Assembly (NCBI GenBank): GCA_029237775.1
Contig: JAQZBR010000004.1
Coordinates: 620,001-684,000 of the forward strand
Reading direction: 5' to 3'
DNA: 64,000 nt
DNA from: Bacteroidota bacterium
GTDB taxonomy: Bacteria > Bacteroidota > Bacteroidia > 2-12-FULL-35-15
The notes beneath the pieces are model-generated. The model was not told where the DNA came from, ran no database searches, and saw only the letters and a program-made list of their open reading frames with translations. Below are positions 18,224-33,404 of the stretch, piece by piece; position 1 is the stretch's first letter, and each line of letters begins with the position of its first letter. Made by a program: the position numbers and the translations under genes.

Positions 18224-18231
18224 TATTTTTG
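18224..18231 (+). promoter_or_regulatory. -7 promoter box just before RNA element copy 1
   Basis: TATTTTTG ends 7 nt before the outer stem of the leader element begins at 18239, placing the element at the very 5' end of the transcript. A TTG at 18193 is 28 nt away, too far for the usual spacing. Confidence 0.45.
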
Positions 18232-18238
18232 TATTAGA

Positions 18239-18291
18239 AAGTGATCATCCTACAAGAGGCCGTGTTTCCTAAGGCTATTCCGAAACCACTT
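18239..18291 (+). ncRNA. Candidate structured leader RNA, copy 1
   Basis: Outer stem AAGTG (18239-18243) with CACTT (18287-18291). Inside are TCATCCTACA, a small hairpin GGCC/GGCT (18258-18261 with 18273-18276, loop 11 nt) and the conserved ATTCCGAAACC. It lies 53 nt upstream of the ATG at 18345. The 3' arm can pair instead with AGTG at 18299-18302, and a second CACTT occurs at 18308-18312, so alternative folds exist. The same layout occurs at 20712 and 25045, upstream of two other surface-protein genes. No protein role is plausible here. Confidence 0.6.
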
Positions 18292-18344
18292 AAATTTTAG
18301 TGTTTGCCACTTGGCCTTTTGCTGAGCATATTTGGATTTGAACA

Positions 18345-20624
18345 ATGAGAAAAATACTTGATCGCGCTTTTCTGTTTTTATTATTGCTGAACATTTCAAC
18401 GTCTGTAGTAGCGCAGACCCCTGCTAACTGCCTTGAAATTGAAAGCATTCTTGTTGATGCCTGCGGAAATCCTGAGGGCGAGAATGAGATGGTCAGGTTT
18501 AAAACAGGATCTTCTCCCATCAATATTTCAAATCTGAGTGTGAGCTGGCCTAACAATGCTTTTCTTGGGATAGCATCAGTAAGTGCAACAACAAATAACA
18601 TTGTGAATGCGCTAAACGCATCCGTCACCAGTTGTGGGTATTTGCTTCAACCGACAGGTGGCGTGATTCCGGCCGGCAAAATGGTTTTACTTATAACTTC
18701 AACCAACGTTATTACATCGGCAAATTCATTTGCAAATCTTTCAGATACGATGTATGTGATCTTTCAAAATGCTGGTAACACTGCGGGTCATTTCGCTAAT
18801 TACAGCACTCCTTCTGGGTTACGAACGCTTTCCATTTCAACATTATCACCTTCCTGCTCGGATGTTGTAAGCTATGATAAGGCTATGTTGGTGAACCAGT
18901 CGGGGGGGCAAGGCGGCAGCTCTGCCCTTAATGATGGCGCAACGGTTGAATTCAGCTGGGCCGGTACTGCCTCGTACGTGAATCATGCGTGTCAGGCACC
19001 TATACAGGCAAATACCGTAAGTGCCGGGCCTAACACCTCAGCATGCGCAGGAGTTACCGTACCTTTGAATGGTACAGCTGCAGGAAACTATACTTCTGTG
19101 ATCTGGCAGGGAGGACAAGGCACTTTCTCAAATCCGACATCTCTTTCAACAAATTATACAATAAGCGGTTCCGAATCGGGTGCAGTTGCACTTTCTCTTG
19201 GAGTTATCGGCAATTGCAACGATACAATTTTCAGCACGGTTGTCATTGTTATAAATAGTGCGCCATCTGTCTCTATTTCTGCGAGCGGCCCCACAACAAT
19301 CTGTAATGGTGGCACAGTTACATTAACCGCATCGGGTTCCGGAAATTATTCATGGAGTACAGGTGCATCGACCAGCAGTATTACCGTTTCCAGCGCTGGA
19401 ACCTACTCAGTATCTTCGGGCAATTCCTGTGGCACTCAAACTGCAACTCAAACGGTAACAGTCACCTCAGCGCCTTCTGTGGTTATTCATTCCGCAAGCA
19501 CTTCATTTTGCCAGGGCGGCAACTTATTGCTTTATGCAACCGGGACGGGGAATTATTCCTGGAGCGGAGGCTCTAACAATGATTCCATTTTTATAACGAA
19601 TGGCGGAACCTATTCAATCACCTCAACGATAAGCTGCGGAACGGCAAGCGATAACATCACCATTACACAGCTACCTTTGCCGGTTGCATCCATCAGCTCT
19701 TCTGCCGGCAATTTCATTTGCTCAGGAAGCTCCACCACATTGACTGCAAATGGAGGATTAACGTACCTCTGGTCACCATCCGGATCAACATCTTCTTCAA
19801 TTACAGTTTCCACAGCAGGAACCTACAGTGTCACCGCAAGCAACTCCTGTGGTAATAATACGACCATATTCACTTTAAACTCTTCCTCAATACCTGTTGC
19901 TAATATTACACCTTCAGGCAGCACAACAATTTGTGCCGGAGAAAACCTTGTTCTTAATGCATCGGGAGGAAATAGTTATATCTGGTCGAACGGACAAGCC
20001 GGAAATTCTATAAATGCAACAATCGAAGGGAATTACTGGGTAGCTGCATTTAATTCATGTGGAAACGACACTGCTTTTATGTTTGTTGATGTCGATTCTG
20101 TTACCGCTTTTTACTCTGCGAGTACTACCAGCGGACATTACCCATTAACTGTAAACTTTACAAATCTTAGCTCAACCTCTGCCACGGGATTTCAGTGGGA
20201 GTATGGAGACGGAAACACATCGAATACCACTGAGGGCTCGAATGTATACGAGTTGCCCGGAATATATACCGCAACATTAACAGCTACAAATACTCTTGGT
20301 TGTATTGATCGGTATGAAATAGTTATCGTTGTGACAGGAGATGCATCTAACCTGGCTATGCCAAACATATTTAGTCCTAACAGAGATGGGATAAATGACA
20401 ATTTCTCAGCAATAGGGAGTGGAATTGAAAAATTCGACTGTAAAATTTATAATCGTTGGGGGATTCTGGTGGCTGAACTGAACACATTTGAAAGTAAATG
20501 GGATGGCCGGACAACCTCGGGGAGTGTGGCGAGCGATGGAACGTATTTTTATATTGCAACTGCCAGCGGCTCAGATGATAAAAAGTATGAATTAAAAGGA
20601 TTTGTGGAGCTTATAGGTAAGTAA
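18345..20624 (+). CDS. Large surface protein with Ig-like/PKD domains and T9SS type B sorting domain
   Basis: A 759-residue exported protein with a signal peptide ending in VVAQ. Residues about 25-220 form an N-terminal domain with two Cys pairs that resembles lamin-tail-like beta-sandwiches. Four to five Ig-like repeats of about 75-80 residues follow (each with TICxGxxxxLxAsGxxxYxWS and GTYxVxxxNSCG), then a PKD domain (WEYGDGNTSNTTEG), and last a gliding-motility-associated C-terminal domain (NIFSPNRDGINDNF, IYNRWG, WDGRTTSG, DGTYFYI). That last domain is the type B T9SS signal, so the protein should cross the outer membrane and be attached or released. It is probably adhesive; no catalytic domain is seen. 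It follows RNA element copy 1. Confidence 0.88.
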   Translation: MRKILDRAFLFLLLLNISTSVVAQTPANCLEIESILVDACGNPEGENEMVRFKTGSSPINISNLSVSWPNNAFLGIASVSATTNNIVNALNASVTSCGYLLQPTGGVIPAGKMVLLITSTNVITSANSFANLSDTMYVIFQNAGNTAGHFANYSTPSGLRTLSISTLSPSCSDVVSYDKAMLVNQSGGQGGSSALNDGATVEFSWAGTASYVNHACQAPIQANTVSAGPNTSACAGVTVPLNGTAAGNYTSVIWQGGQGTFSNPTSLSTNYTISGSESGAVALSLGVIGNCNDTIFSTVVIVINSAPSVSISASGPTTICNGGTVTLTASGSGNYSWSTGASTSSITVSSAGTYSVSSGNSCGTQTATQTVTVTSAPSVVIHSASTSFCQGGNLLLYATGTGNYSWSGGSNNDSIFITNGGTYSITSTISCGTASDNITITQLPLPVASISSSAGNFICSGSSTTLTANGGLTYLWSPSGSTSSSITVSTAGTYSVTASNSCGNNTTIFTLNSSSIPVANITPSGSTTICAGENLVLNASGGNSYIWSNGQAGNSINATIEGNYWVAAFNSCGNDTAFMFVDVDSVTAFYSASTTSGHYPLTVNFTNLSSTSATGFQWEYGDGNTSNTTEGSNVYELPGIYTATLTATNTLGCIDRYEIVIVVTGDASNLAMPNIFSPNRDGINDNFSAIGSGIEKFDCKIYNRWGILVAELNTFESKWDGRTTSGSVASDGTYFYIATASGSDDKKYELKGFVELIGK

Positions 20625-20680
20625 CAAAAATGTTGATAGTTTTTTAACAATTATATAAAACGTGGGAATGGGTTTAAATA

Positions 20681-20688
20681 TATATTTG
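20681..20688 (+). promoter_or_regulatory. -7 promoter box before RNA element copy 2
   Basis: TATATTTG. Transcription would start near 20694, about 18 nt before the outer stem of the leader element. No good -33 TTG. Confidence 0.5.
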
Positions 20689-20711
20689 CTCAACGAACAT
20701 TCTGTTTGTTA

Positions 20712-20760
20712 AAGTGAACACCCTACAGGAGAGCTAATTCTGCTTGATCCGAAACCACTT
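20712..20760 (+). ncRNA. Candidate structured leader RNA, copy 2
   Basis: Outer stem AAGTG (20712-20716) with CACTT (20756-20760). Inside are AACACCCTACA, a hairpin GAGC/GCTT (20731-20734 with 20742-20745, loop 7 nt) and GATCCGAAACC. It lies 34 nt upstream of the ATG at 20795. The conserved CGAA (20750-20753) could alternatively pair with TTCG at 20777-20780 or at 20789-20792, the latter just before the start codon. Shares its conserved blocks with copies 1 and 3. Confidence 0.62.
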
Positions 20761-20794
20761 AGAGATTTTATAGTAATTCGAAGTTGAATTCGTG

Positions 20795-23700
20795 ATGCAT
20801 AAATTTAGTTTAGTCATAAAACGTGTTAATATATCTGTTTTAATCATTTTCTCGATTTTAACAGGCCTAAATGGTGTTGCTCAAACTTCGCTTTATTCCG
20901 AGAATTTCGGAACAACCACGACCTTACCATCCGGGTGGGTAAGCAGTAGTACTTCTGCCGGGTGGGCGAACAGCACTGCCTCAGCATCAACAGGCTATAC
21001 CGGAGCATCAGGTGGGGGAAATGCTTTATTTAACGGTACGGGTACAAACGGTGTCAGCCATACACTTACTTATTCTAATTCCCTTTCCACCGTTGGCTAC
21101 ACAGGGATAACAGTTTTATGGGGTGGAAGAGGAACATCAACTTTTTCTCAAACAGTAACATTTCAGTGGAGTTCAGATGGAACCTCATGGAATAATGTTG
21201 CATATACAAATGTAACTTATAATGCCACCTGGGCTCTAGTGAATGGCGGCACAAGGATTTCTTTACCTGTGGGAGCGGAAGGACTTAGCAACCTAAGATT
21301 TAGATTTACATCCACATCTGCCAATAATGGCAATTTTAGAATAGATGATTTTTCAGTCCAAGGAACAAGCAGTACTGTTGCAACTATAACCGTTTCTCCC
21401 ACCACCCTGTCCGGATTCACATATGTTGTAGGAAACGGCCCATCCGCAGAACAATCATTCACCTGCAGTGGAACAACACTTAGTTCTAACATTTCCATTT
21501 CGGCTCCGGCTGATTATGAAATCTCTCTAACAAGCGGATCAGGCTTTGGAAATTCACTGAGCTTAACGCCCGTTTCAGGAACAGTTTCTGCAACAACCGT
21601 TTATGTAAGATTAATTTCCGGCTTATCTGTTAACACCTACAACAGCGAAGTGATCACTGCAAGCAGCACCGGAGCCACCTCTAAAAATGTGACTTGCAGC
21701 GGTTCCGTAACTGCATCGGCTGCATCTGATATCATAAACGCAAACGGTGAAGCTGCAACAATTTCCTCTATTATTAACACTGCAGGCCCTCTTACTTCCT
21801 CGCAGGGAACACAAGTTTGGCAATTCACAATTCGGGATGGCGGTGCTTCAAACGATGCTGATAACTTATCGTCTATCGTTACTGCATTAACTTTTGCTCA
21901 GGGGACCGGAAACTCTGTTGGCACCTGGAATACAGCAATCCAGTCTGTTGACCTTTTTGATGGCACCACTAACGTTGGAACAGCCACAGTCACCTCAACA
22001 CAGGTTCAGTTCACAGGACTTAATATCGTTGTTGCTGATAATACTTCGAAAACAATTTCGGTAAGACTTACACTTAAATGTGGTATTGGCAGCGGAAACA
22101 CTGACGGTGAAGATTTTGTATTTTCTCTGTCTAATGCGAATTCCACTTTTTCTTCCACCGGTTCCGGAAAAACATCCTTCACTGCCATTGCTACTGCTAA
22201 CGGACAAAATATTATTTCAGTTGTTGCAACTCAGTTAACTTTTACACAACAACCAACTTCCTCAGGAATGAATGCGATTATGTCGCCCGCTGTTGTTGTT
22301 AAAGCGACTGACGCCTGCGGCAACGCAGATGCAGGATTTTCATCTTCAGTAACAATTACATCTACAGGAACAATGGTAGGATCTCCGATAACTGCAACAG
22401 CCACTTCAGGATCGGCAACATTCAGCACCATCACTCACAGTGCTGCTGGAAACGGATTTACCTTAACTGCAACTTCCGGAGGACTCAGTGTAACCAGTAA
22501 CACTTTTGACATTTACACAACCACTGTGTTAGGCGGAGGAGACCTGGCTATTGTCGGGATCTGTGTAAATATAGATGGCTGTAATGGAACCTCTGGCGGA
22601 TCGGATGAGATCAGCTTCGTGACTTTTGAAGACATTGCTCCCGGAACTGCTATTGATATCACTGACAATGGTTACGAAAGAGTTGGTTGCGGCTCTAACA
22701 ACTGGGGAAATGGTGAAGGTGTGATCAGGTTGACAAGAACAACGTCAGTAATTACAAAAGGTACCATCATCACGTTTCGCGTTGTTAACAGTACCTATTT
22801 CTCATCGGTAAGTCCGGATGCGAACTGGACGATTTCTTACCCGGTAGGAAATAGCTTTAATTTAAACAGTAATGATGAACAGGTTTACATGATGCAGGGA
22901 GGAACCTGGTCTGCAGGAACTGCCGGCTCAAGTAATGCAACCTATACTGGCGGAACTTATATGTTTGCTATCAACACTTATACTGCCTGGACCTGTAATA
23001 ATAACACTACAGATCGCGGTGCTTTACCGGATGCGCTTAAATGTTTCAGCATTATGCCAAGCACGGGAACTGTAAATGTTAAATACACCGGGGATGTTAC
23101 GCCTGCAAGCCAAAAAGACTGGATAGACCGATTAAATAGTGTTGGTAACTGGTCGGCATCAACCACATGCACTGCTTACAACACTTTAACTCCAAATTAT
23201 TCGGGAGGGTATTCCTTTTCAATTCTTAATAGTGGCTTTAACAGCGGGTATTGGACGGGCGCGTCAAATACCGACTGGTACGATTGCAATAACTGGCAAA
23301 ACTTTAAAGTACCGGATTCACTTGCAAATGTGACCATTGACAATGTCACGAATGATCCTGTTATCGGAGCATCACCGGCTCTGTTTCCTAATGGGGCTAT
23401 CTGTAATGACCTCCTGATAACCAGCACTGCAGGTCCGGGTGTTCTTACGATGAACAATGCTCTTACACACTTTTCAGTAAAAGGAAATATAACCAATAAT
23501 GGTATCATCACTTCATCTAACGGCTTAACAGACCTTCGCTCTTCAAATGCACAAACCATTTCAGGAACAGGAACAACGACTTTTTATAATCTTAGAATCA
23601 ACAATACAAATACAGCTTCGGTAAATCTTTTACAGGACGTGACAGCAGCTAATTCGTTAATCTTTACGAATGGAAAGATCAGTACCGGTAGCAATAAATT

Positions 23701-24826
23701 TATAATCACCAATACTACAGCTCCTGCAATCAGCGGATATAGCTCATCGAGATTTATCAATGGAACATTGCGTCAATATATTGCAAGCAACACTTCAACC
23801 TATATTTTTCCAGTTGCTGATGGCATGCTGAGCACCAATTACAAAAGAGCGGATGTGATCAATAATAATTTAACAGGAGTCACGTACATTGACGGATCCG
23901 TGACAACAGTTACGGAAACAGCTCCTGAAGATGACGGAACATTTGCAGGCGCAGGACAAACACAATCTGGTTCAGCCCTTGGCTACATCATGGAAAATGC
24001 GCAATGGGAGCTGGTACCGGATGCAGATCCTTCAGGGAATGATTATGGGGTGAGGCTTTACACAGCAAATACAGGCTTATCAGCCAGTGAGGACGATCAG
24101 TTTTTTGCAGTCAAACGACCAAGCAACTCCACAAGCTATGCTGATTGGGTGAGCCTGGATGCGTCCACCACTGTTCCAGTCGCAGGTGCTGCAGGCAGAG
24201 TTTACAACTCCGGACTTGGCTATGCGGAGAGACTAGGATACACATCATTCAGCAAACATGGAATTGCTACAACAGTCAGCCCCCTGCCTATCGAACTACT
24301 CGATTTTAATGCAAAGTATAACAACGGTGTTGTAAATGTTTTTTGGACCACAGTTTCAGAAACCAACAACGACTACTTTACAATTCTGAGAAGTGAAAAT
24401 GGCATCGAATTTCATGATATAGGAACAGTTGATGGTGCCGGCAACAGTACATCTGTGCTTAACTACAGTTCGGACGACAAAAAACCATTAAGGGGAACAA
24501 GCTATTACCAATTAAAACAAACTGATTTTGACGGCAAGATCTCTTATTCGCGAATCGTCCCGGTCTCGTTTGGTGGTGGGGTGTTCGAAGAAATGATTTA
24601 CCCGAACCCTACAGCTGATCATATCAATATTCTTTTGAGCGCAGAAAATGATCAACGATTTAATTTTGAAGTGGTCGATCTGCGAGGTATAACTGTGATC
24701 TCAAGAGCTGATTCATATAAAGGTGAAGAATTTTCTTTGTCGCTTAAAACACTTGCTGCAGGAACTTATATATTAAAAACTACTTCAGGAGACAGAACGA
24801 TCCAGAAACTTATTATTAAGCAATAA
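20795..24826 (+). CDS. Very large T9SS cargo protein, multidomain surface protein
   Basis: A 1343-residue exported protein with an N-terminal signal region ending in GVAQ. Residues about 30-195 look like a jelly-roll domain (ENFGTTTTLPSGW ... FRIDDFSVQG). A domain with SPTTLSGFTYVVGNGPSAEQ then follows (about 200-300), then several beta-sandwich segments (KTISVRLTLKCGIGSGN, and VVVKATDACGNADAGF, an invasin-like Ig fold). A Cys-containing segment with ISFVTFEDIAPGTAIDITDN comes near 600. The last 80 residues are a type A T9SS sorting domain (MIYPNPTADHINILL ... AGTYILKT). No enzyme motif was seen. The ATG at 20795 is preferred over the adjacent GTG at 20792. Confidence 0.85.
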   Translation: MHKFSLVIKRVNISVLIIFSILTGLNGVAQTSLYSENFGTTTTLPSGWVSSSTSAGWANSTASASTGYTGASGGGNALFNGTGTNGVSHTLTYSNSLSTVGYTGITVLWGGRGTSTFSQTVTFQWSSDGTSWNNVAYTNVTYNATWALVNGGTRISLPVGAEGLSNLRFRFTSTSANNGNFRIDDFSVQGTSSTVATITVSPTTLSGFTYVVGNGPSAEQSFTCSGTTLSSNISISAPADYEISLTSGSGFGNSLSLTPVSGTVSATTVYVRLISGLSVNTYNSEVITASSTGATSKNVTCSGSVTASAASDIINANGEAATISSIINTAGPLTSSQGTQVWQFTIRDGGASNDADNLSSIVTALTFAQGTGNSVGTWNTAIQSVDLFDGTTNVGTATVTSTQVQFTGLNIVVADNTSKTISVRLTLKCGIGSGNTDGEDFVFSLSNANSTFSSTGSGKTSFTAIATANGQNIISVVATQLTFTQQPTSSGMNAIMSPAVVVKATDACGNADAGFSSSVTITSTGTMVGSPITATATSGSATFSTITHSAAGNGFTLTATSGGLSVTSNTFDIYTTTVLGGGDLAIVGICVNIDGCNGTSGGSDEISFVTFEDIAPGTAIDITDNGYERVGCGSNNWGNGEGVIRLTRTTSVITKGTIITFRVVNSTYFSSVSPDANWTISYPVGNSFNLNSNDEQVYMMQGGTWSAGTAGSSNATYTGGTYMFAINTYTAWTCNNNTTDRGALPDALKCFSIMPSTGTVNVKYTGDVTPASQKDWIDRLNSVGNWSASTTCTAYNTLTPNYSGGYSFSILNSGFNSGYWTGASNTDWYDCNNWQNFKVPDSLANVTIDNVTNDPVIGASPALFPNGAICNDLLITSTAGPGVLTMNNALTHFSVKGNITNNGIITSSNGLTDLRSSNAQTISGTGTTTFYNLRINNTNTASVNLLQDVTAANSLIFTNGKISTGSNKFIITNTTAPAISGYSSSRFINGTLRQYIASNTSTYIFPVADGMLSTNYKRADVINNNLTGVTYIDGSVTTVTETAPEDDGTFAGAGQTQSGSALGYIMENAQWELVPDADPSGNDYGVRLYTANTGLSASEDDQFFAVKRPSNSTSYADWVSLDASTTVPVAGAAGRVYNSGLGYAERLGYTSFSKHGIATTVSPLPIELLDFNAKYNNGVVNVFWTTVSETNNDYFTILRSENGIEFHDIGTVDGAGNSTSVLNYSSDDKKPLRGTSYYQLKQTDFDGKISYSRIVPVSFGGGVFEEMIYPNPTADHINILLSAENDQRFNFEVVDLRGITVISRADSYKGEEFSLSLKTLAAGTYILKTTSGDRTIQKLIIKQ

Positions 24827-24915
24827 ATCAATGAAATACCTTCTTACAAAACTTTCCGGAGGAGAATAAACATACACGCGATTACCTTCAGGATCACCCT
24901 GCTACTTTCATTGAT
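24827..24915. repeat. Long inverted repeat after the 1343-residue gene
   Basis: ATCAATGAAA (24827-24836) directly follows the stop codon and is inverted as TTTCATTGAT at 24906-24915, then followed by a T-rich stretch. The 69 nt between the arms have no open frame of note. It could be an unusual terminator with a long loop. Confidence 0.45.
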
Positions 24916-25023
24916 ATTTTTCCTTTTGCTTGTCTTTTTCAGGGCATAGATAAAATTAGGGTTATCCTTTCATTATCTGTTCATTACTAATGAAAAACCT
25001 GCAAAACGTATCAAAAATTTTGG

Positions 25024-25031
25024 TACATTTG
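25024..25031 (+). promoter_or_regulatory. -7 promoter box before RNA element copy 3
   Basis: TACATTTG. Transcription would start near 25037, about 8 nt before the outer stem of the leader element. Confidence 0.5.
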
Positions 25032-25044
25032 CACAGTTAATTCA

Positions 25045-25101
25045 GGAGGTGAACACCCTACACGAATCCTTCATTCAGAAGGCAATTCCGAAACCGCCTC
25101 C
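25045..25101 (+). ncRNA. Candidate structured leader RNA, copy 3
   Basis: Outer stem GGAGGTG (25045-25051) with CGCCTCC (25095-25101), 7 bp with one U-G. Inside are AACACCCTACA, a hairpin CCTT/AAGG (25068-25071 with 25079-25082, loop 7 nt) and AATTCCGAAACC. Relative to copies 1 and 2 the stem has changed on both sides, keeping base pairs. CCGAA (25088-25092) could alternatively pair with TTCGG at 25103-25107, breaking the conserved block. It lies 34 nt upstream of the ATG at 25136. Confidence 0.65.
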
Positions 25102-25135
25102 GTTCGGCTTTAAACCATATTTTAAACTTACTTAC

Positions 25136-26032
25136 ATGAAAAAACTTTTACTATCTGTTTTATCACTTGCGTCTGTTTTAACTGCCAGCGCGCAGTGTAA
25201 TGAATTATTTATTTCCGAGTACGTGGAAGGTACCGGTAATGACAAAGCGATTGAGATCTACAATCCAACAGCGAACCCTATAAATTTATCTGCTTATAAG
25301 CTTGTCCGTTATTCTAATGGTTCGTCAACAGCTTCTGACCAGTTGCAACTTTCAGGTACTATCGCTGCTCATGATGTTTTTGTTATTGTTAACGGACAAA
25401 CATCCGGTTCGTCCACTTCTCCTGCTGTTTCTCCTGCATTGCAACAAATGGCTGATCAGTTGGATGGTGCTTATCCTGCTCCAACTTATATGAATGGTAA
25501 CGATGCACTTACTTTAGAAAAAAACGGAACTATTGTAGACATCTTCGGAAAGATTGGTGAAGACCCGGGTGTAGCTTGGACTGACGTATTTCCTTATACA
25601 TCAGGAAGTGGTACATGGATCACGAAAGACCACACTTTAAGAAGAAAAGTATCTGTGAATCAGGGTGTAACCAGTAACCCGACTGCATTTGATGTTATGT
25701 CTCAGTGGGACTCGTTGCCTAACGCTACGTGGGCAGGATTAGGAACCCATTCGAGCGTATGCTTTGTTGGAATTGATGAGATCGACAATACTGTTGCAAT
25801 TTCAGTTTTCCCTAATCCATCAAACGGAGATTATTTTACAGTAAGCTCGACTGAAGTAATCGTTTCTGTTCAGGTTGTTAATGTTGTTGGTCAGGTTGTA
25901 GTATCGAAAGAATTGAAAAATTCAGATAAAAATGTAAAGATCGAAACTACGGAACTTTCAAAAGGACTTTATATTGTGAAAGCGGGTTTTGGCAATCAAA
26001 AACAGACCACTACTAAATTAATCATCAAATAG
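25136..26032 (+). CDS. Lamin-tail domain T9SS cargo protein
   Basis: A 298-residue exported protein. The signal peptide (MKKLLLSVLSLASVLTASAQ) is followed by a lamin-tail-type beta-sandwich (CNELFISEYVEGTGNDKAIE, then IYNPTANPINLSAYKL, to about residue 200) and a C-terminal type A T9SS sorting domain (FPNPSNGDYFTVSS ... LSKGLYIVKAG). Bacterial lamin-tail domains occur in secreted nucleases and phosphatases and probably bind ligands at the cell surface. There is no catalytic domain here. The start is set at the ATG at 25136. A frame open from 25049 would read through RNA element copy 3 and add residues with no signal-peptide character. Confidence 0.87.
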   Translation: MKKLLLSVLSLASVLTASAQCNELFISEYVEGTGNDKAIEIYNPTANPINLSAYKLVRYSNGSSTASDQLQLSGTIAAHDVFVIVNGQTSGSSTSPAVSPALQQMADQLDGAYPAPTYMNGNDALTLEKNGTIVDIFGKIGEDPGVAWTDVFPYTSGSGTWITKDHTLRRKVSVNQGVTSNPTAFDVMSQWDSLPNATWAGLGTHSSVCFVGIDEIDNTVAISVFPNPSNGDYFTVSSTEVIVSVQVVNVVGQVVVSKELKNSDKNVKIETTELSKGLYIVKAGFGNQKQTTTKLIIK

Positions 26033-26051
26033 TAAATTAGAATTCTAAATT

Positions 26052-26090
26052 AAAAAACGCTGATAGAGCTTTCCAATCAGCGTTTTTTTT
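26052..26090 (+). terminator. Terminator after the lamin-tail gene
   Basis: AAAAAACGCTGAT and ATCAGCGTTTTTT form a stem with an 11 nt loop, followed by a T-run. It separates the lamin-tail gene from the TonB receptor gene. Confidence 0.85.
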
Positions 26091-26111
26091 ATCTGTAACA
26101 ACCTGATAATC

Positions 26112-28964
26112 GTGAAAAATATTCTGTTTTCTTTATTTGTGTTATTTGTTAGCACCTCGATGTTCTCACAAAACGGTGAAGTTAAAGGTACCGTTAAGGA
26201 TGCTGCATCTGGCGAAACGATCATAGGCGCGACAGTTCTGATTGCTGAAGGTAAAGGCGTGGTTACTGATATTGATGGAAATTACAGCTTAAAACTTGAT
26301 CCCGGAGCCTACACTCTCACGGTTTCATTTGTAGGTTATGAAAGTGTGCAGCAAAAAATCAAAATAGAAAACAAATCTGTTAATTATAATTTCTCCCTCA
26401 AACTTAAAACCCTAAACGAAGTTGAGATCGTTGCCGATGTAGCTAAAACAAGAGAAACTCCTGTAGCCTTTTCAACTATCTCTTCTAAGCAATTAAAGGA
26501 AGAGCTTCACTCAAGAGATCTGGCGATGATCGCTAACACAACTCCCGGAGCATATGCTACTGAAACAGGTGGTGGAAGCGGAGATGCGCGTGTTACGATT
26601 CGTGGTTTCGACCAGCGTAATGTGGCTGTATTGGTGGATGGAGTTCCGGTAAACGACATGGAGAACGGCCAGGTATACTGGAGCAACTGGGATGGTTTAG
26701 GAGATGTGACAAGAAACGTACAGATCCAGCGAGGGCTTGGGGCTTCAAAGCTGGCAATTGCATCCGTTGGAGGTACAATGAACATTATCACCAAAGGCAT
26801 CGATTCGAAAAGAGAGATCAGTATCAAACAGGAAGTGATGAGCGACCTGATGTATAAAACAGGTCTGTCATTTAATACCGGACAGTTAAAAGGCGGATGG
26901 GGTGTTACAGGTGCATTCACTAAAAAAAATGGTGTTGGCTTTGCGGACTATACATGGACCGATGCTTATTCATACTTCCTGAAAGTTCAGAAAAGAATGG
27001 GAAAACACCTGTTAAGTCTCAGCGCTTCAGGAGCTCCTCAAAAACATGGACAAAGAACTGAACGCTTACCGATAGTGGTGTATAGTCAGGATCTTGCCTC
27101 CTCTGTAGGAATAAATGCCGATAGCATGGTTGCAGCAACCCAGTATACGTACTCTGGTAGCGGGGACAGGGGGATACGATATAATCCGCATGGAGGAACT
27201 TTAAACGGGAAAGATTTTAATGAGAGAGTTAATTATTTTCATAAACCACAAATTAATCTCTCCTATTTCTGGAATATCAATCAAAAATTATTCTGGTCAA
27301 CTGTTGCTTATGCATCATTTGGTAAAGGTGGTGGAACAAGACTACAAAACTCCCCTGGTTTTAATGACCGTGACCAGGAAACAGGCCAGATCAAATTCCA
27401 GAAGATCTTTGATGAGAATGCTAAGAAGTTTGATAACTTGTATAGCACTACCGAACACAAATCAACGAACATCATCCGAAGCTCAGTAAACAACCACGAA
27501 TGGTATGGTTTGTTAAGCACATTAAATTATAAAATCGATTCAAATTTTACAGCGGTGATTGGTATAGACGGTCGATACTATAAAGGTATTCACTATACTG
27601 AAGTTTATGACCTGTTAGGTGGTGATTATTATTTGAATTCTTCAGATGCAAATCAACCTACCGGAGCGGGAAATCTCAATTCATACATCAAACGTAAGGG
27701 AGATAAGATCTTCACGAACAATGAAGGTTATGTTAACTGGGGTGGTGCTTTCGGTCAATTAGAATATAAGAAAAAGAAGTGGAGCACTTTCGTGACTGCA
27801 AGCGTTTCAGAAACAGGTTATCAGCGGAAGGATTTCTACCAGAAACGAGACATCATTCTTGACGGGGAAACTTATTATAGAGCTGTGGGTTATGGAGATG
27901 TATTCTTTTACAATGGAGCAGATCATATAATTGCATTAAAAAATTCGATCATAAGTTATTCAGGAGACACTACATTTGTTGACAATCCCGGTAGTGATCC
28001 AAAGCGGTACATATTAAATGCAAAGGCATATAACAATGAATCTGCTGAAGCAAGGACTTCCCTTACAAAGAAAAAATGGTATCTGGGCTACACAACCAAA
28101 GCAGGAGCAAACTATAATATCAACTCGCATCATAATGTATTCGTTAATATCGGATACCTTCAAATGGCTCCGAAATTTAATCTTGTATTTACCAGCACGA
28201 ATCAGGAGAACACCAGAGCAACATTGCAAAAAATAATTGCGGTTGAAGGTGGTTATGGTGTTAAATACAGCAAATTTGCGTCAAATATTAACCTGTATTA
28301 TACTAACTGGAAAAACAAGCCTCTGTCCGATTTTCCTACAATCCGTATCTCAGGGGATGACTATTACTACAATACCTCCGGCCTGGATGCCATCCATAAG
28401 GGAATTGAGTTAGATTTTATCTATAAACTTCTTAAGAACCTTGATGTTGAAGGTTTAGTTTCTTTGGGCGACTGGACAACCAATACAGCGGATGATGTCA
28501 TTCTTTATGATATGAATACTGATCTTCCGGAAGACACCATTAAATTCAGCGCAAAAGGAATACATGTTGGGGATGCTGCACAGATCCAGCTAGGTGGAAG
28601 TGTCCGATACGAGATCATTAAAAATCTTTATTTAAAAGCACGTTATACTTATTTCACGAAGAACTATTCAAATTTCAATTTGCTTGACCTGGCTGTAGAA
28701 TACAAAACAAATGGTACAATAAAACAAGATAATCGCGACAGGGAATCCTGGAAAATGCCTGCGTATGGACTGCTCGATATAAATGCCGGCTATGATTTCA
28801 AACTCTGGAAACTGAATTTTACAATTTCAGCAGGAGTCATGAACGTACTTAATACTACATACATATCCGATGCTCAGAACGGGATCAACTTTAATGCGAC
28901 TACTGCTGTAGTTCATATCGGTCCGGGTACACGCTTTAATACAGCTTTACGAATCGCTTTTTAA
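26112..28964 (+). CDS. TonB-dependent outer membrane receptor
   Basis: A 950-residue outer membrane receptor. A signal peptide (start GTG at 26112) leads to a carboxypeptidase-regulatory-like domain (GEVKGTVKDAASGETIIGAT ... YTLTVSFVGYE, about 22-100). A plug domain follows (about 110-230, with ARVTIRGFDQRNVAVLVDGV and GGTMNIITKG) and then a 22-strand-type barrel ending in RFNTALRIAF. The plug would be pulled by TonB-ExbBD to import a large substrate. There is no SusD partner. Instead the next gene, 19 bp downstream, encodes a secreted endonuclease, so import of nuclease products (nucleotides or oligonucleotides) is a reasonable inference. A terminator upstream shows the pair is a separate unit. 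Confidence 0.9.
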   Translation: MKNILFSLFVLFVSTSMFSQNGEVKGTVKDAASGETIIGATVLIAEGKGVVTDIDGNYSLKLDPGAYTLTVSFVGYESVQQKIKIENKSVNYNFSLKLKTLNEVEIVADVAKTRETPVAFSTISSKQLKEELHSRDLAMIANTTPGAYATETGGGSGDARVTIRGFDQRNVAVLVDGVPVNDMENGQVYWSNWDGLGDVTRNVQIQRGLGASKLAIASVGGTMNIITKGIDSKREISIKQEVMSDLMYKTGLSFNTGQLKGGWGVTGAFTKKNGVGFADYTWTDAYSYFLKVQKRMGKHLLSLSASGAPQKHGQRTERLPIVVYSQDLASSVGINADSMVAATQYTYSGSGDRGIRYNPHGGTLNGKDFNERVNYFHKPQINLSYFWNINQKLFWSTVAYASFGKGGGTRLQNSPGFNDRDQETGQIKFQKIFDENAKKFDNLYSTTEHKSTNIIRSSVNNHEWYGLLSTLNYKIDSNFTAVIGIDGRYYKGIHYTEVYDLLGGDYYLNSSDANQPTGAGNLNSYIKRKGDKIFTNNEGYVNWGGAFGQLEYKKKKWSTFVTASVSETGYQRKDFYQKRDIILDGETYYRAVGYGDVFFYNGADHIIALKNSIISYSGDTTFVDNPGSDPKRYILNAKAYNNESAEARTSLTKKKWYLGYTTKAGANYNINSHHNVFVNIGYLQMAPKFNLVFTSTNQENTRATLQKIIAVEGGYGVKYSKFASNINLYYTNWKNKPLSDFPTIRISGDDYYYNTSGLDAIHKGIELDFIYKLLKNLDVEGLVSLGDWTTNTADDVILYDMNTDLPEDTIKFSAKGIHVGDAAQIQLGGSVRYEIIKNLYLKARYTYFTKNYSNFNLLDLAVEYKTNGTIKQDNRDRESWKMPAYGLLDINAGYDFKLWKLNFTISAGVMNVLNTTYISDAQNGINFNATTAVVHIGPGTRFNTALRIAF

Positions 28965-28983
28965 TAATTATAACACTATTGAC

Positions 28984-31194
28984 ATGAAAAAATTACTCCT
29001 ATCTTCTTTTGCAAGTGCATGCATCGCTTTATCCGGTTTTGCACAGGCAGTACTACCAACCGCGTGGAGCTTTGCAACCACAAGCTTTCCTACCGGCTGG
29101 ACAACAACAGGTACAGCATATTACACAGGATCGGGCTTTAACGCCCCTGCCTTAAAGTTTGACAATACAGGTGATCTTTTAACAATTAGCTTTGCAAGCG
29201 CACCTGGAAATGTGTCTTATTACATTGCCGGAAACAGCTTCTCGGGAGGAACTTTTCTCGTGGAAGAATCCGTAAATGGAACAAGCTGGACGACCTTACA
29301 TTCATTCACAGCGCCACCGGCCGGAACGTACACACAATATACTGATGTTCCAAATACAGCTTCACGTTACATTCGCTTTAACTATTCTGTTAAAGTGAGC
29401 GGTAACATCGGACTTGACGAAGTAAGCATTGCAGCCGCGGCTGCCAGCCCTGCTCAGGAAATCAACATCAAGCAAGGGTCATCAACAATTATAAGCGGAG
29501 GAACATCAGTGGTAAATTCACCGGTAAGCACCACTTCTCCAATTACCTTTACAATTGAAAATCTGGGTACTGTAAATACCCTGAATATTTCTTCTGCAAA
29601 CATTACAGGTGCAAATGCTGCAGATTTTTCTGTAGGATCTTCTCCATCAGCTATCACCTCTGCTTCAACAGGAAGTCTGATCATTAACTTCACTCCATCA
29701 GCTGCCGGTACAAGAATGGCAACTCTCTCCATTGCGAGCGATGACGCTGACGAAAACCCTTATATTATTTACCTTTATGGTATTGGTGGCTCGTTTGCTT
29801 CTGAACCTTCAAATCCACCATCTAACCTGACTTTCAGCAATCTTAAAACATACAGAGTGACCGGCAGTTTTGCCGCAGCGTCTCCTGCTCCGGAAGGGTA
29901 TATCGTACTTAGGAAAACCGGAAGCCCGGTGACTGATATTCCTGCTGATGGAACTGTTTACAAAAGAGGCGATCTTATTGGAAGCTCACAGGTTGTCTAC
30001 AGCGGCAACATAATGTCATTCGCACCAAATAATATTGTTGCAGGGACTACCTATCATTTTGCGGTATTCGCCTATAACGGTCCCGGCAGCTACAGAAATT
30101 ACCTGAGCTCATCTCCTCTTGCAGGATTCGTCACGACCCCGTCAACTATGCAGCCCGCTACATATTACAACAGCGTTTCAACTTCCGCATCATCTTTTGT
30201 TACAGATCTTCATAACAAGATCAACCCGCATATTCAGCAGTTTTACAGCAATTATGGGATAAAGATGGTTACTCCATTTATTGCACGCGACACAGTGAAT
30301 GACCAGCGTGTGATCAACTGCGTTTACAGCGGACAAAAACAGATTTACTCTGACCCGTTTGACTTCACCGCAAACGGATTCAGTCGCGAACATACTTATT
30401 GCCACAACTGGATGCCGACAAATCCTGCTGACGGAAGACCGGAATACGATGATTATCATCATCTCTTTCCTACCAACCAGGATGATGTTAACGCCATCCG
30501 CAGCAATTATCCATTGGGTGAAGTGGTTGGAACGCCTACTTATACTTATCTGGGCTGTAAATTTGGTTTGAACGCGCAGGGAAAAACCGTTTTTGAACCA
30601 CGTGACTCCCACAAAGGTGATGCTGCAAGAGCATTGTTTTATATGGCAACCTGTTATGATGGCGTGGGTGGCCAGGACTGGTCTCTGCCTGATTATATCA
30701 GCACAAGTATTCCATACGGACAGGATCAAAATGTATTGAAGAAATGGCATTACCAGGATCCTCCTGATAATTACGAGATCGCCAGAAACGACTTTGTTGA
30801 TTCTTTACAGAATAACCGTAATCCATTTATCGATAGCGTTCAGTTCGCTTGTTATATTGATTTTTGGACCATGAATAAAATAACAGCACCAATGATTCCG
30901 TGCAACAGCTCGGTAATAGGAATCAATGAGCAATCAAACAGTACGGATATGATGACGCTCGCTCCTAACCCTAACAGCGGTTCTTTCACTCTGACTTTTG
31001 TAACTGAAAAAGCACAGACGCTTAACATCACTTTAATAGATTTACTTGGTAGAATGGTTTACTCTAAAGAAACAAAAGTTAATCGTGGATACAATCCCCT
31101 TGAAATGAATGTTACATCTTTAAGCAAAGGTATTTATACATTTATACTGAGCACCGAATCAGGCAGAACAACGGAGAAGCTGGTGATTGAATAA
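28984..31194 (+). CDS. Secreted endonuclease I-family nuclease with T9SS sorting domain
   Basis: A 736-residue exported protein. After the signal peptide come a jelly-roll domain (about 25-155), an Ig-like choice-of-anchor D-type domain (about 160-270, DFSVGSSPSAITSASTGSL) and a fibronectin-like segment (about 280-385). An endonuclease I domain (about 390-640) follows, with REHTYCHNW, DDYHHLFPTNQDDVNAIRSN and a GDAARALFYMATCYD helix. His and Asn residues in these motifs form the His-metal site of the family. A type A T9SS sorting domain ends the protein (LAPNPNSGSFTLTF ... LSKGIYTFILS). It probably degrades extracellular DNA or RNA. Cotranscribed with the TonB receptor 19 bp upstream. Confidence 0.9.
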   Translation: MKKLLLSSFASACIALSGFAQAVLPTAWSFATTSFPTGWTTTGTAYYTGSGFNAPALKFDNTGDLLTISFASAPGNVSYYIAGNSFSGGTFLVEESVNGTSWTTLHSFTAPPAGTYTQYTDVPNTASRYIRFNYSVKVSGNIGLDEVSIAAAAASPAQEINIKQGSSTIISGGTSVVNSPVSTTSPITFTIENLGTVNTLNISSANITGANAADFSVGSSPSAITSASTGSLIINFTPSAAGTRMATLSIASDDADENPYIIYLYGIGGSFASEPSNPPSNLTFSNLKTYRVTGSFAAASPAPEGYIVLRKTGSPVTDIPADGTVYKRGDLIGSSQVVYSGNIMSFAPNNIVAGTTYHFAVFAYNGPGSYRNYLSSSPLAGFVTTPSTMQPATYYNSVSTSASSFVTDLHNKINPHIQQFYSNYGIKMVTPFIARDTVNDQRVINCVYSGQKQIYSDPFDFTANGFSREHTYCHNWMPTNPADGRPEYDDYHHLFPTNQDDVNAIRSNYPLGEVVGTPTYTYLGCKFGLNAQGKTVFEPRDSHKGDAARALFYMATCYDGVGGQDWSLPDYISTSIPYGQDQNVLKKWHYQDPPDNYEIARNDFVDSLQNNRNPFIDSVQFACYIDFWTMNKITAPMIPCNSSVIGINEQSNSTDMMTLAPNPNSGSFTLTFVTEKAQTLNITLIDLLGRMVYSKETKVNRGYNPLEMNVTSLSKGIYTFILSTESGRTTEKLVIE

Positions 31195-31213
31195 TTTATA
31201 TTGTTATTATGAT

Positions 31214-31250
31214 AAACAAAACGTCCCGCCAATTGCGGGACGTTTTGTTT
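31214..31250 (+). terminator. Bidirectional terminator between convergent genes
   Basis: A perfect 16 bp stem (31214-31229 with 31235-31250, core ACGTCCCGC) with a 5 nt loop CAATT. AT-rich outer bases give U-runs on both strands, serving the nuclease gene (plus) and the DUF3857-like gene (minus). Confidence 0.9.
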
Positions 31251-31265
31251 TATATCAGGTTAAAT

Positions 31266-33404
31266 TTATTTTAGCTTGACAGTTGCATTATTTATCTGGT
31301 TGAGCTCATTAATGAATGCCAACAGTAAATTTCCTTCTTCTTTTGGAAGCAGCTCCTGTTTCACTTTAACTGTTACTGACAAAAGATAATTGCTCTCATC
31401 CTGTTTGACCATCCCCGAACTTATTTCAAAATATTTATTGTTTAGTGAATGTGTAAAGTCAGCAAGATTTTCAATCTCTACGGGCTTAGCGAACTTTAAC
31501 AAATAATTATACGCATCTGAATATCGAAAATCTGTATAATAATCGAAGTTAGGATCACCATTGATCATCTCCGGCTTGTATGTGAATGCAAACCAGTCCT
31601 TCAGAGAAATTGCCTTTGAATTATTCATTGGAATATCTTCTGTACATGCAAAGGAATTCTTAAACGGAAATACATTTGATTTGTAGACAAGCTTATTTGT
31701 AATACGGACCGCGCCCGGTTTATCAATACAGCGTTTAAAGTATGTTGGACTGATAGTTGAGTCAATAGACTCCTTCAAATAAAAAGGCCTCAGGATAGTG
31801 GAGAACTGCCCGTTGAGATTTTCTTTAATGCTTAAATGCATAATTGAAGAATCCGGGTTGATAGTTATCACACCATTCTCTGTTCTCACATTCTCATTTT
31901 CTGTGCTCGCAGGTGTTTTTATGAAATTGATCACCTTGGCTACACTGAGAAAATCTGTTGCCTTGGTGTAACTGCTGATCTCAAATATGTGATAATTAGC
32001 CGCTCTCAACGCAGCGTTCACGCCCTGCATATAAAAAGGCAGCTCGTCTGCGTTGAATTTCAATCCATCATTGCGCTGCCGGATCAGACGGCTGCTCTTC
32101 CCATTTGGAACTCCTAATATCAAATACTCATAGCGGTATTCAGTCCGGCTGTCAAATTTTAACTCCCCTAAACGCTTATCCTGAACTGTAACAAAATAAG
32201 TCGGCTTCTTTAACTCATTGAGTATCTCCCAGTATAACTCAAAAACGAACTCTTCAATTAACTTGCCTTTGGTCAGCCACTCCCCCGAAGAAACACTGTA
32301 CTGCGCATTCTGACCATATTTCATTGACTCTGCTGAAATAAATTTCAAAGCATTCAGCGAATCACAAAGTGCGGTGTAAAACATCTCGGGAGGATTCGCC
32401 TGCTGGACCTTTGAAATAAATTTTCGCACTCCTGCATGTTGCTTATCATATACTGCTTCTTTATAACCCAGGGAATCATTTTTTGGAGCAAAGATCCATT
32501 CAAAATTAGGCCCCCTGTCCGCATGAAGGAGGGTTTCAAATGCCATCCCCGAAGTATAATAGCTTACAAAGTCAAAGTCGACAAAAATATGCGGTAGCTG
32601 CTTTCCGCAACGAGTGTTAAGCGGATAATTAATTGAAGGAAGGTCTTCAAATTTGTAAGTGTACGTCCAGGTCTTTTTAGATTTTACCGGATCGTAAACT
32701 GATGTCTTTTTTATGAGACTGTCAGGACAATTCGGAGAGCTGATGATATCATACTTTTCAAACTGCGGAAGGGGATGGTATTTCACTTCCATGCTTATAT
32801 TCTGTTTGGATATCTCATCACTGAAGTAAAACAGATTGTATCCGTATTTGCCCTGAAACTGGGCCTTATAAGTATATTCCAGAATGTCACCAACCTCGAG
32901 GCCATTGTTTAAAAAATGATAGACATAGTCTTCCATCCGCAAACCTTCATTATCTATCCAGTAAAATTTATCTGTCCGTAATTCTGCAGGTATTTCTATA
33001 ACTTTTCCATCCCGCTTTAACACCCTGGCTTTATAATATAATATTTTGTATTTGTAAATAAAAGGAACCTCACTGCCCACGCCTCTGCCCTGCTGAATAA
33101 AATATTTGTCAACAGCGATGTCGAACGATTCGGGAAGGGTCACAACCGCAGCTTTCTTGATACCGGCAGGCTTATTAATTTTCACAAGGCAGGTTTTTGT
33201 TAAAGTTTGAGACATCAGATCCGTAAAATCAAATTGAATTTTCTCATCCAGTACTATAGCATCTTCTTTGCTGAAAGACGTGGATGCATTCGACACGTCA
33301 GGCTTATTCTCAGCCCATGCATATACGTACTTTTGAAAATCGAAAGTTTGGGAAAAAGAAGTCATGCACGCGAGCAGCATGGACAAAGAATAAAAATATT
33401 TCAT
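31266..33404 (-). CDS. Large exported protein, DUF3857-like
   Basis: A 712-residue exported protein with a signal peptide (MKYFYSLSMLLACMTSFSQ). The N-terminal half (about 60-330) has alternating strands with KARVLKRDGKVIEIPAELR, VGDILEYTYKAQF and IKKAAVVTLPESF. This resembles DUF3857, usually followed by a transglutaminase-like domain. I do not see a convincing Cys-His-Asp triad in the C-terminal half, so enzymatic activity is doubtful. The start is placed at the ATG at 33404: an in-frame ATG at 33425 would lie inside the TATCTTTG promoter box at 33423-33430. Role unknown. Confidence 0.65.
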   Translation of the reverse strand: MKYFYSLSMLLACMTSFSQTFDFQKYVYAWAENKPDVSNASTSFSKEDAIVLDEKIQFDFTDLMSQTLTKTCLVKINKPAGIKKAAVVTLPESFDIAVDKYFIQQGRGVGSEVPFIYKYKILYYKARVLKRDGKVIEIPAELRTDKFYWIDNEGLRMEDYVYHFLNNGLEVGDILEYTYKAQFQGKYGYNLFYFSDEISKQNISMEVKYHPLPQFEKYDIISSPNCPDSLIKKTSVYDPVKSKKTWTYTYKFEDLPSINYPLNTRCGKQLPHIFVDFDFVSYYTSGMAFETLLHADRGPNFEWIFAPKNDSLGYKEAVYDKQHAGVRKFISKVQQANPPEMFYTALCDSLNALKFISAESMKYGQNAQYSVSSGEWLTKGKLIEEFVFELYWEILNELKKPTYFVTVQDKRLGELKFDSRTEYRYEYLILGVPNGKSSRLIRQRNDGLKFNADELPFYMQGVNAALRAANYHIFEISSYTKATDFLSVAKVINFIKTPASTENENVRTENGVITINPDSSIMHLSIKENLNGQFSTILRPFYLKESIDSTISPTYFKRCIDKPGAVRITNKLVYKSNVFPFKNSFACTEDIPMNNSKAISLKDWFAFTYKPEMINGDPNFDYYTDFRYSDAYNYLLKFAKPVEIENLADFTHSLNNKYFEISSGMVKQDESNYLLSVTVKVKQELLPKEEGNLLLAFINELNQINNATVKLK

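Follow-up and report, generated by a model that had tools for sequence, protein, structure and literature searches.

A leader element that occurs three times in the 64,000-nt stretch of Bacteroidota DNA analysed here (the window) represents a structured RNA family that is well supported and matches nothing in Rfam 15. We interpret it as a cis-acting structured leader RNA that is most likely a small riboswitch (rough probability 0.5), with ligand binding and switching as predictions. It probably acts as an RNA gene switch that has not been described before, and it precedes numerous genes for secreted surface proteins and DNA-degrading proteins in uncultured relatives. The element is a conserved structured RNA located in the 5' untranslated region, in cis to the gene, with the transcript start deduced from promoter boxes. 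A covariance model built from 56 relatives (R2) identified three strong matches in the window, the next-best score being 14.1 bits:

18235 to 18297, + strand: leader copy 1 (58.7 bits, E 2e-13), with the outer stem P1 at 18239-18243 / 18287-18291
20708 to 20766, + strand: leader copy 2 (56.1 bits, E 1e-12), with P1 at 20712-20716 / 20756-20760
25043 to 25105, + strand: leader copy 3 (66.2 bits, E 2e-15), the element noted originally

By direct reading, P1 and everything it encloses span 18239-18291 in copy 1 and 20712-20760 in copy 2, and 57 nt (25045-25101) in copy 3, whose parts are as follows:

25045 to 25051, + strand: 5' arm of P1, GGAGGTG (direct reading; covariation across homologues)
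25052 to 25060, + strand: 5' side of the internal loop, AACACCCTA, consensus AHYAYCCUA (column counts, 127 elements)
25061 to 25062, + strand: C25061, which pairs with G25090, and bulged A25062 (alignment pair counts)
25068 to 25082, + strand: variable inner hairpin P2, CCTTC 25068-25072 / GAAGG 25078-25082 (covariation)
25091 to 25094, + strand: 3' side of the internal loop, AAAC; A/U, A, A/G, C in the family (column counts, 127 elements)
25095 to 25101, + strand: 3' arm of P1, CGCCTCC (direct reading; covariation across homologues)

The original prediction held that the outer stem is an RNA structure maintained by compensatory change. Direct reading confirmed the arms on which this was based, AAGTG/CACTT in copies 1 and 2 and GGAGGTG/CGCCTCC in copy 3, along with one pair that reads A-U, A-U and G-C across copies 1, 2 and 3 and another that reads U-A, U-A and U-G. 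The outermost pair that had been counted is indeed G-C in copy 3 and A opposite A in copies 1 and 2, but it lies outside the general stem, pairing in only 68 of 127 elements. The assertion that this is direct evidence even from three copies was right about the structure and too strong about its basis, given that the copies contain one two-sided change and that only copy 3 folds better than its shuffles as a single sequence (z -2.25, compared to 0.94 for copy 1 and -0.20 for copy 2). Support for the RNA structure comes from the homologues, not from the three copies by themselves. A looser core pattern retrieved copies 1-3 plus one unrelated match from the whole own genome (backwards control: one match), and a repeat search of 20000-32000, which contains only copies 2 and 3, did not recover them as a repeat.

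The test that had been proposed for the outer stem, namely the collection of homologous leaders, was run with a tree-based null (a FastTree tree, with columns evolved independently at matched rates) on distinct rows only, loop columns with more than half gaps being excluded from the trees. A stem-free search pattern consisting of the loop letters only (CCTACANGA...CCGAAACC; set A1) yielded 28 elements in 15 of the 36 genomes of the own family (one genus, own included), compared to one match for the backwards control. In a MAFFT alignment of this set (26 distinct rows), the seven outer-stem pairs are formed in 87.9% of cells and two-sided changes occur at five of the seven; none of 500 shuffles and no slid register attained the covariation score of the whole structure. 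Taken as one helix, the six inner P1 pairs lie above every simulation, as none of 1000 null simulations attained the observed covariation, and their number of paired cells exceeded all but 2 of the 1000. The outer stem is thus supported as an RNA structure kept by compensatory change. Independent change of the two arms, the outcome that was to count against it, is absent from the six inner pairs and present in the outermost one.

A larger set of 127 elements comprises chosen, mostly top-scoring places, a subset of all matches found, and its pairing percentages lean towards structure because the search model contains P1, a bias from which set A1 is free. In the larger set the six inner P1 pairs (columns 4-9 with 114-119) form in 100, 118, 125, 127, 127 and 127 of the 127 elements. 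Tested singly, pairs 4-119 (E 0.007) and 6-117 (E 0.05) stand out, pairs 3-120 (E 0.9), 5-118 (E 1.1) and 8-115 (E 6.6) are without significance in these 127 elements, and pairs 7-116 and 9-114 are nearly invariant; as one helix P1 lies above every simulation in covariation here too. At pair 8-115 U-G fills 62 of the 127 cells and A.C never occurs, an asymmetry that assigns the RNA to the + strand. Above the loop, five P2 pairs and pair 19-109 each lie above all 150 null alignments; pairs 21-108, 22-107 and 23-105 have no significance singly (E 0.4 to 21), and helix 19-23 as a whole had its paired-cell count reached by 12 of 500 null simulations and its covariation by none of 500.

Model matches are 45-82 nt long across the 127 elements. 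The letters of the 5' loop, AHYAYCCUA, are retained almost throughout, with A10, A13, C15, C16, U17 and A18 each kept in 122-127 of 127, and the facing side reads A or U (94 A, 30 U), then A111 in 127 of 127, A or G (121 A) and C113 in 127 of 127, such that this highly conserved internal loop resembles a binding site as judged from its letters. It is closed by pair C19-G109, for which an alignment not fitted to the pair (n=56) gives 40 CG, 4 UG, 3 AU, 1 UA, 7 unpaired and 1 gap; in the larger set 96 of 127 are paired and 31 lack a standard pair, 10 of these with G opposite G. Position A20, where 126 of the 127 elements have A, looks bulged; a possible exception is a variant with AAG opposite CTT that occurs in 21 of the 127 elements. 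In this variant the pairing may be shifted to A19-U110 and A20-U109 with no bulge, and the variant could point to another state or specificity of the loop; column pair 19-110, which is outside the model, and 19-109 are both above all 150 null alignments. P2 is free in sequence and variable in length. A short form found in 7 of 26 LTD (lamin tail domain) leaders, in which P2 follows directly after the bulged A (CCUACA-hairpin-GAAACC), fits a putative core consisting of the loop, the C-G pair and the bulge, set on a free hairpin. Tandem copies 0-17 nt apart occur at seven places (L081, L086, L092, L180, L187, L189 and L198).

The family has a restricted distribution. Whenever a search covered more than 40 genomes, the filters were stricter and lost weak matches. 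With model R1, the element was detected in 30 of the 36 genomes that make up the own order (one genus, own included) and, under the stricter filters, in 27 of 395 genomes sampled across the class, confined to five families (the own and four others). Model R2 detected it in 59 of 87 genomes in the order of G284 (stricter filters) and in three of seven in the order of G050. The single match among 395 genomes drawn from the phylum (stricter filters) was the window's own genome, a result that doubles as a specificity control. All 31 loci returned by a strict-pattern scan of named genome records are titled as metagenome-assembled Bacteroidota, and neither of two patterns matched viral contigs. The element is also present in metagenome-assembled records titled Chryseobacterium gleum (L126), Sphingobacterium thalpophilum (L132) and Chitinophaga pinensis (L138), names that may be wrong.

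Each window copy is preceded by a sequence that conforms to TAnnTTTG, the -7 box of Flavobacterium, which lies at -12 to -5 in F. psychrophilum according to the part of PMC9723704 considered here:

18224 to 18231, + strand: -7 box TATTTTTG of copy 1, start placed near 18236 (direct reading; TAnnTTTG rule)
20681 to 20688, + strand: -7 box TATATTTG of copy 2, start placed near 20693 (direct reading; same rule)
25024 to 25031, + strand: -7 box TACATTTG of copy 3, start placed near 25036 (direct reading; same rule)

A TAnnTTTG box lies at most 70 nt upstream of 91 of the 127 elements, compared to a background further upstream of 0.57 per kb, and in 73 of those 91 it is 9-24 nt before the element, which places the putative transcript start within about 15 nt of P1 in 73 of 127. 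The genes downstream were assigned by a mechanical rule (an ATG start and a length of at least 70 aa); 124 of the 127 elements were assigned a gene and 123 an ORF, the upstream copy of three tandem pairs being left unassigned and L181 being excluded from the downstream-gene and spacing tallies as a duplicate of L110. The distance from the element end to the first such ORF is 8-40 nt in 75 of 123 elements, 41-180 nt in 33 and more than 180 nt in 12, the ORF being closer or overlapping in the other 3. No terminator-like site occurs between element and start codon for the three window copies (18297-18345, 20766-20795 and 25105-25136), which makes transcription attenuation unlikely in these three. 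CCGAA and UUCGG could form an alternative helix in 11 of 26 LTD leaders and in 7 of the 68 CCGAA-bearing elements overall; an anti-P1 helix is unsupported as a general expression platform, and no conserved platform was found.

The genes that follow the three copies were identified from the ORF list and a domain search:

18345 to 20624, + strand: gene after copy 1, 759 aa, with PKD and a CHU_C type IX secretion (T9SS) signal
20795 to 24826, + strand: gene after copy 2, 1343 aa from ATG, with a T9SS type A sorting domain
25136 to 26032, + strand: gene after copy 3, 298 aa, with an LTD and a T9SS type A sorting domain
26055 to 26090, + strand: terminator-like hairpin and T run between the LTD and TonB receptor genes (by a rule of our own; not listed by a separate terminator scan)
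26112 to 28964, + strand: TonB-dependent receptor (CarboxypepD_reg-like and Plug), with GTG at 26112 and the first ATG at 26160
28984 to 31194, + strand: endonuclease I with choice-of-anchor D and a T9SS sorting domain

Each of the three copies is thus followed by a gene with a T9SS signal. At least 150 Por_Secre_tail matches stand against three elements in the own genome, so most T9SS genes lack one. Among the first genes of family f41 (61 of 67 first ORFs used), Pfam reports Por_Secre_tail in 34, CHU_C in 12 and LTD in 8, classes that may overlap. DUF5689 appears in 8 and DUF5017 in 6 of 49 second- or third-position proteins from these loci (49 of 59 second ORFs used).

The arrangement after copy 3 recurs, and an LTD gene next to a TonB receptor gene is the most consistent target of the family. 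By phmmer, an LTD-like first ORF follows 25 of 124 elements (two of these being one tandem pair), a TonB receptor gene comes after the LTD gene in four families (f1, f16, f37 and f41), and in 17 of 23 LTD-receptor loci the product of the third gene is similar to the endonuclease I protein of the window. For the window, L103 and L106, Pfam confirms the nuclease domain itself; in five f41 loci the third gene is cut at the end of the fetched stretch, and the three of these scanned with Pfam show only anchor-like domains. At the nuclease position L116 has a PLD-like domain and L213 a below-cut-off S1/P1 match, the first gene of the latter not being LTD-like by phmmer. A search that started from the gene gave 38 LTD matches in 31 of 36 genomes, with the element directly upstream in 26 of the 30 LTD loci fetched; of the four without it, two are cut off by a contig edge at the gene start, one has 130 nt upstream with no match, and the remaining one is the lowest-scoring of the 30. 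A terminator-like hairpin lies between the LTD and receptor genes in 14 of 23 LTD loci by our own rule, with stem sequences that differ between genomes, and the LTD gene may be mostly a separate transcript, with read-through to receptor and nuclease. A TonB-receptor-like first ORF (phmmer), with further ORFs after it, follows the element in L110/L181, L215, L219, L228 and L233; the L110 protein has no Pfam match at E 0.001.

Other targets relate to nucleosides. In family f16 the element precedes deoC and aldehyde dehydrogenases in two genomes and a SprB gene adjoining pyrimidine nucleoside phosphorylase in one genome, and in family f37 it precedes two SprB genes adjoining a nucleoside transporter; the deoC operons and nucleoside-transporter loci hint at DNA scavenging. 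Apart from a long aldolase paralogue, 21 of 23 genomes have a DeoC-like locus of the f16 kind, which we infer to encode the true DeoC. The element is present at two of these 21 loci (G050 and G160); seven others scanned with the model contained none, and none of the remaining 12 coincides with an element place found in the genome searches. A DNA-catabolism theme for all targets is weakened by this count. The regulon is mixed, made up mostly of T9SS proteins of unassigned role, with cytosolic DNA-catabolism genes rare.

Taken alone, the P1 of most elements is predicted to be weak (median probability 0.02 without a partner, above 0.5 in 20% of the 127), which is how a helix dependent on a partner should behave. 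In the main rival reading, which we consider possible with some reservation, the partner is an RNA-binding protein that binds the loop and represses, activates or stabilises the mRNAs as one regulon. The same letters stand before functionally mixed, mostly exported-protein genes, for which a global regulator fits better than one metabolite, and the weak P1 and the shuffle-level folding of copies 1 and 2 would also fit a protein-bound RNA, although the two-sided internal loop with its closing bulge looks to us like an aptamer core. That the fold merely shields T9SS-cargo mRNAs from decay at their 5' ends, without sensing, is unlikely: it begins about 15 nt or less from the putative transcription start in 73 of 127 elements, as such a role would have it, but a stabiliser requires a stable stem, and here P1 is predicted weak and it is the loop letters that are conserved.

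Readings in which the RNA fold plays no part fare worse. The position just downstream of the -7 box would suit a palindromic DNA signal, such as a downstream promoter element or operator, yet this is highly improbable and largely refuted by the U-G combinations at 8-115 (62/127), where DNA symmetry needs A-T or C-G, and by a covarying P2 of free sequence and varying length. Hardly any weight is left for the idea that the element encodes a leader peptide or the N-terminus of the protein; a frame that includes the LTD gene is open from a GTG at 25049 to 26032, but element lengths fall in all frames (remainders 0/1/2 in 44/34/49 of 127), which refutes the idea for the family as a whole, and many downstream genes start after the element at a signal-peptide-like ATG.

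In the riboswitch reading that we prefer, a small molecule would bind the conserved internal loop, and binding, whether of a ligand or of a protein, would clamp the weak P1 upstream of the start codon and alter translation or transcript stability. Shine-Dalgarno sequences are absent from Bacteroidetes, and in F. johnsoniae initiation is tuned by the structure around the start codon (PMC6847099, considered in part). An effect on translation would be the likeliest output because of this absence of Shine-Dalgarno pairing and the sensitivity to start-codon structure. Since LTD, TonB receptor and nuclease targets recur, a signal of extracellular DNA or phosphate supply is the first ligand candidate. 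The more specific proposal, that the riboswitch class senses a DNA-breakdown product (a deoxynucleoside, deoxyribose phosphate or a related signal) and controls secreted DNA scavenging and T9SS surface proteins of uncultured Bacteroidota, is doubtful; if true, it would be, to our knowledge, the first riboswitch tied to eating extracellular DNA. The element offers a handle on the control of type IX secretion cargo and DNA degradation in these bacteria, and an RNA as short as copy 3 (57 nt) suits direct ligand testing.

Rfam 15 has no match at gathering score in the window, none that reaches gathering score on the element at E up to 10, and nothing on the elements in five other loci at E up to 1. 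Titles and abstract openings of open-licence PMC text revealed no description of the element. The 2'-deoxyguanosine riboswitches are built on a purine-type three-way junction. The element has no junction, and a theme of deoxynucleoside economy is common to both only if the DNA-scavenging reading is right. Bacteroidales-1, Bacteroides-1, Flavo-1 and Bacteroid-trp are Bacteroidetes structured RNAs with Rfam numbers (Weinberg et al., 2010; PMC2864571, considered in part) and share the phylum with the element, but a search around copy 3 at E up to 10 brings up none of the four. On the protein side, the LTD gene product matches an N-terminal part of the NCBIfam ExeM model (E 5e-30, 104 bits, cut-off 1300). 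Proteins with lamin tail and nuclease domains are found in DNA-degradation loci of other bacteria (PMC8289736, in the part considered); in the ExeM-type nuclease both are in one protein, whereas here the LTD, the receptor and the nuclease belong to three different proteins, and T9SS signals are present in the LTD protein and the nuclease.

The nearest look-alike that we met is domain 1 of the NAD+-I (nadA) riboswitch, a small single-axis aptamer with an ACANCC-containing 5' loop beside P1 and with tandem domains (PMC7297122, considered in part). The element is similar in size, has a single axis and an ACANCC-containing 5' loop beside P1 as well, and likewise occurs in tandem (at 7 places among the 127). 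In the nadA RNA, however, an 8-nt ACANCCCC bulge has nothing opposite and is accompanied by a 7-bp P1a and a GYG internal loop (PMC7297122), whereas the 9-nt loop AHYAYCCUA of the element faces AAAC, and the helix above it is free in length and sequence, with no 7-bp P1a and GYG loop. As far as the part of that description considered here allows, membership in NAD+-I is rejected on bulge and loop anatomy, two defining features in which the element differs from its closest resemblance among known systems.
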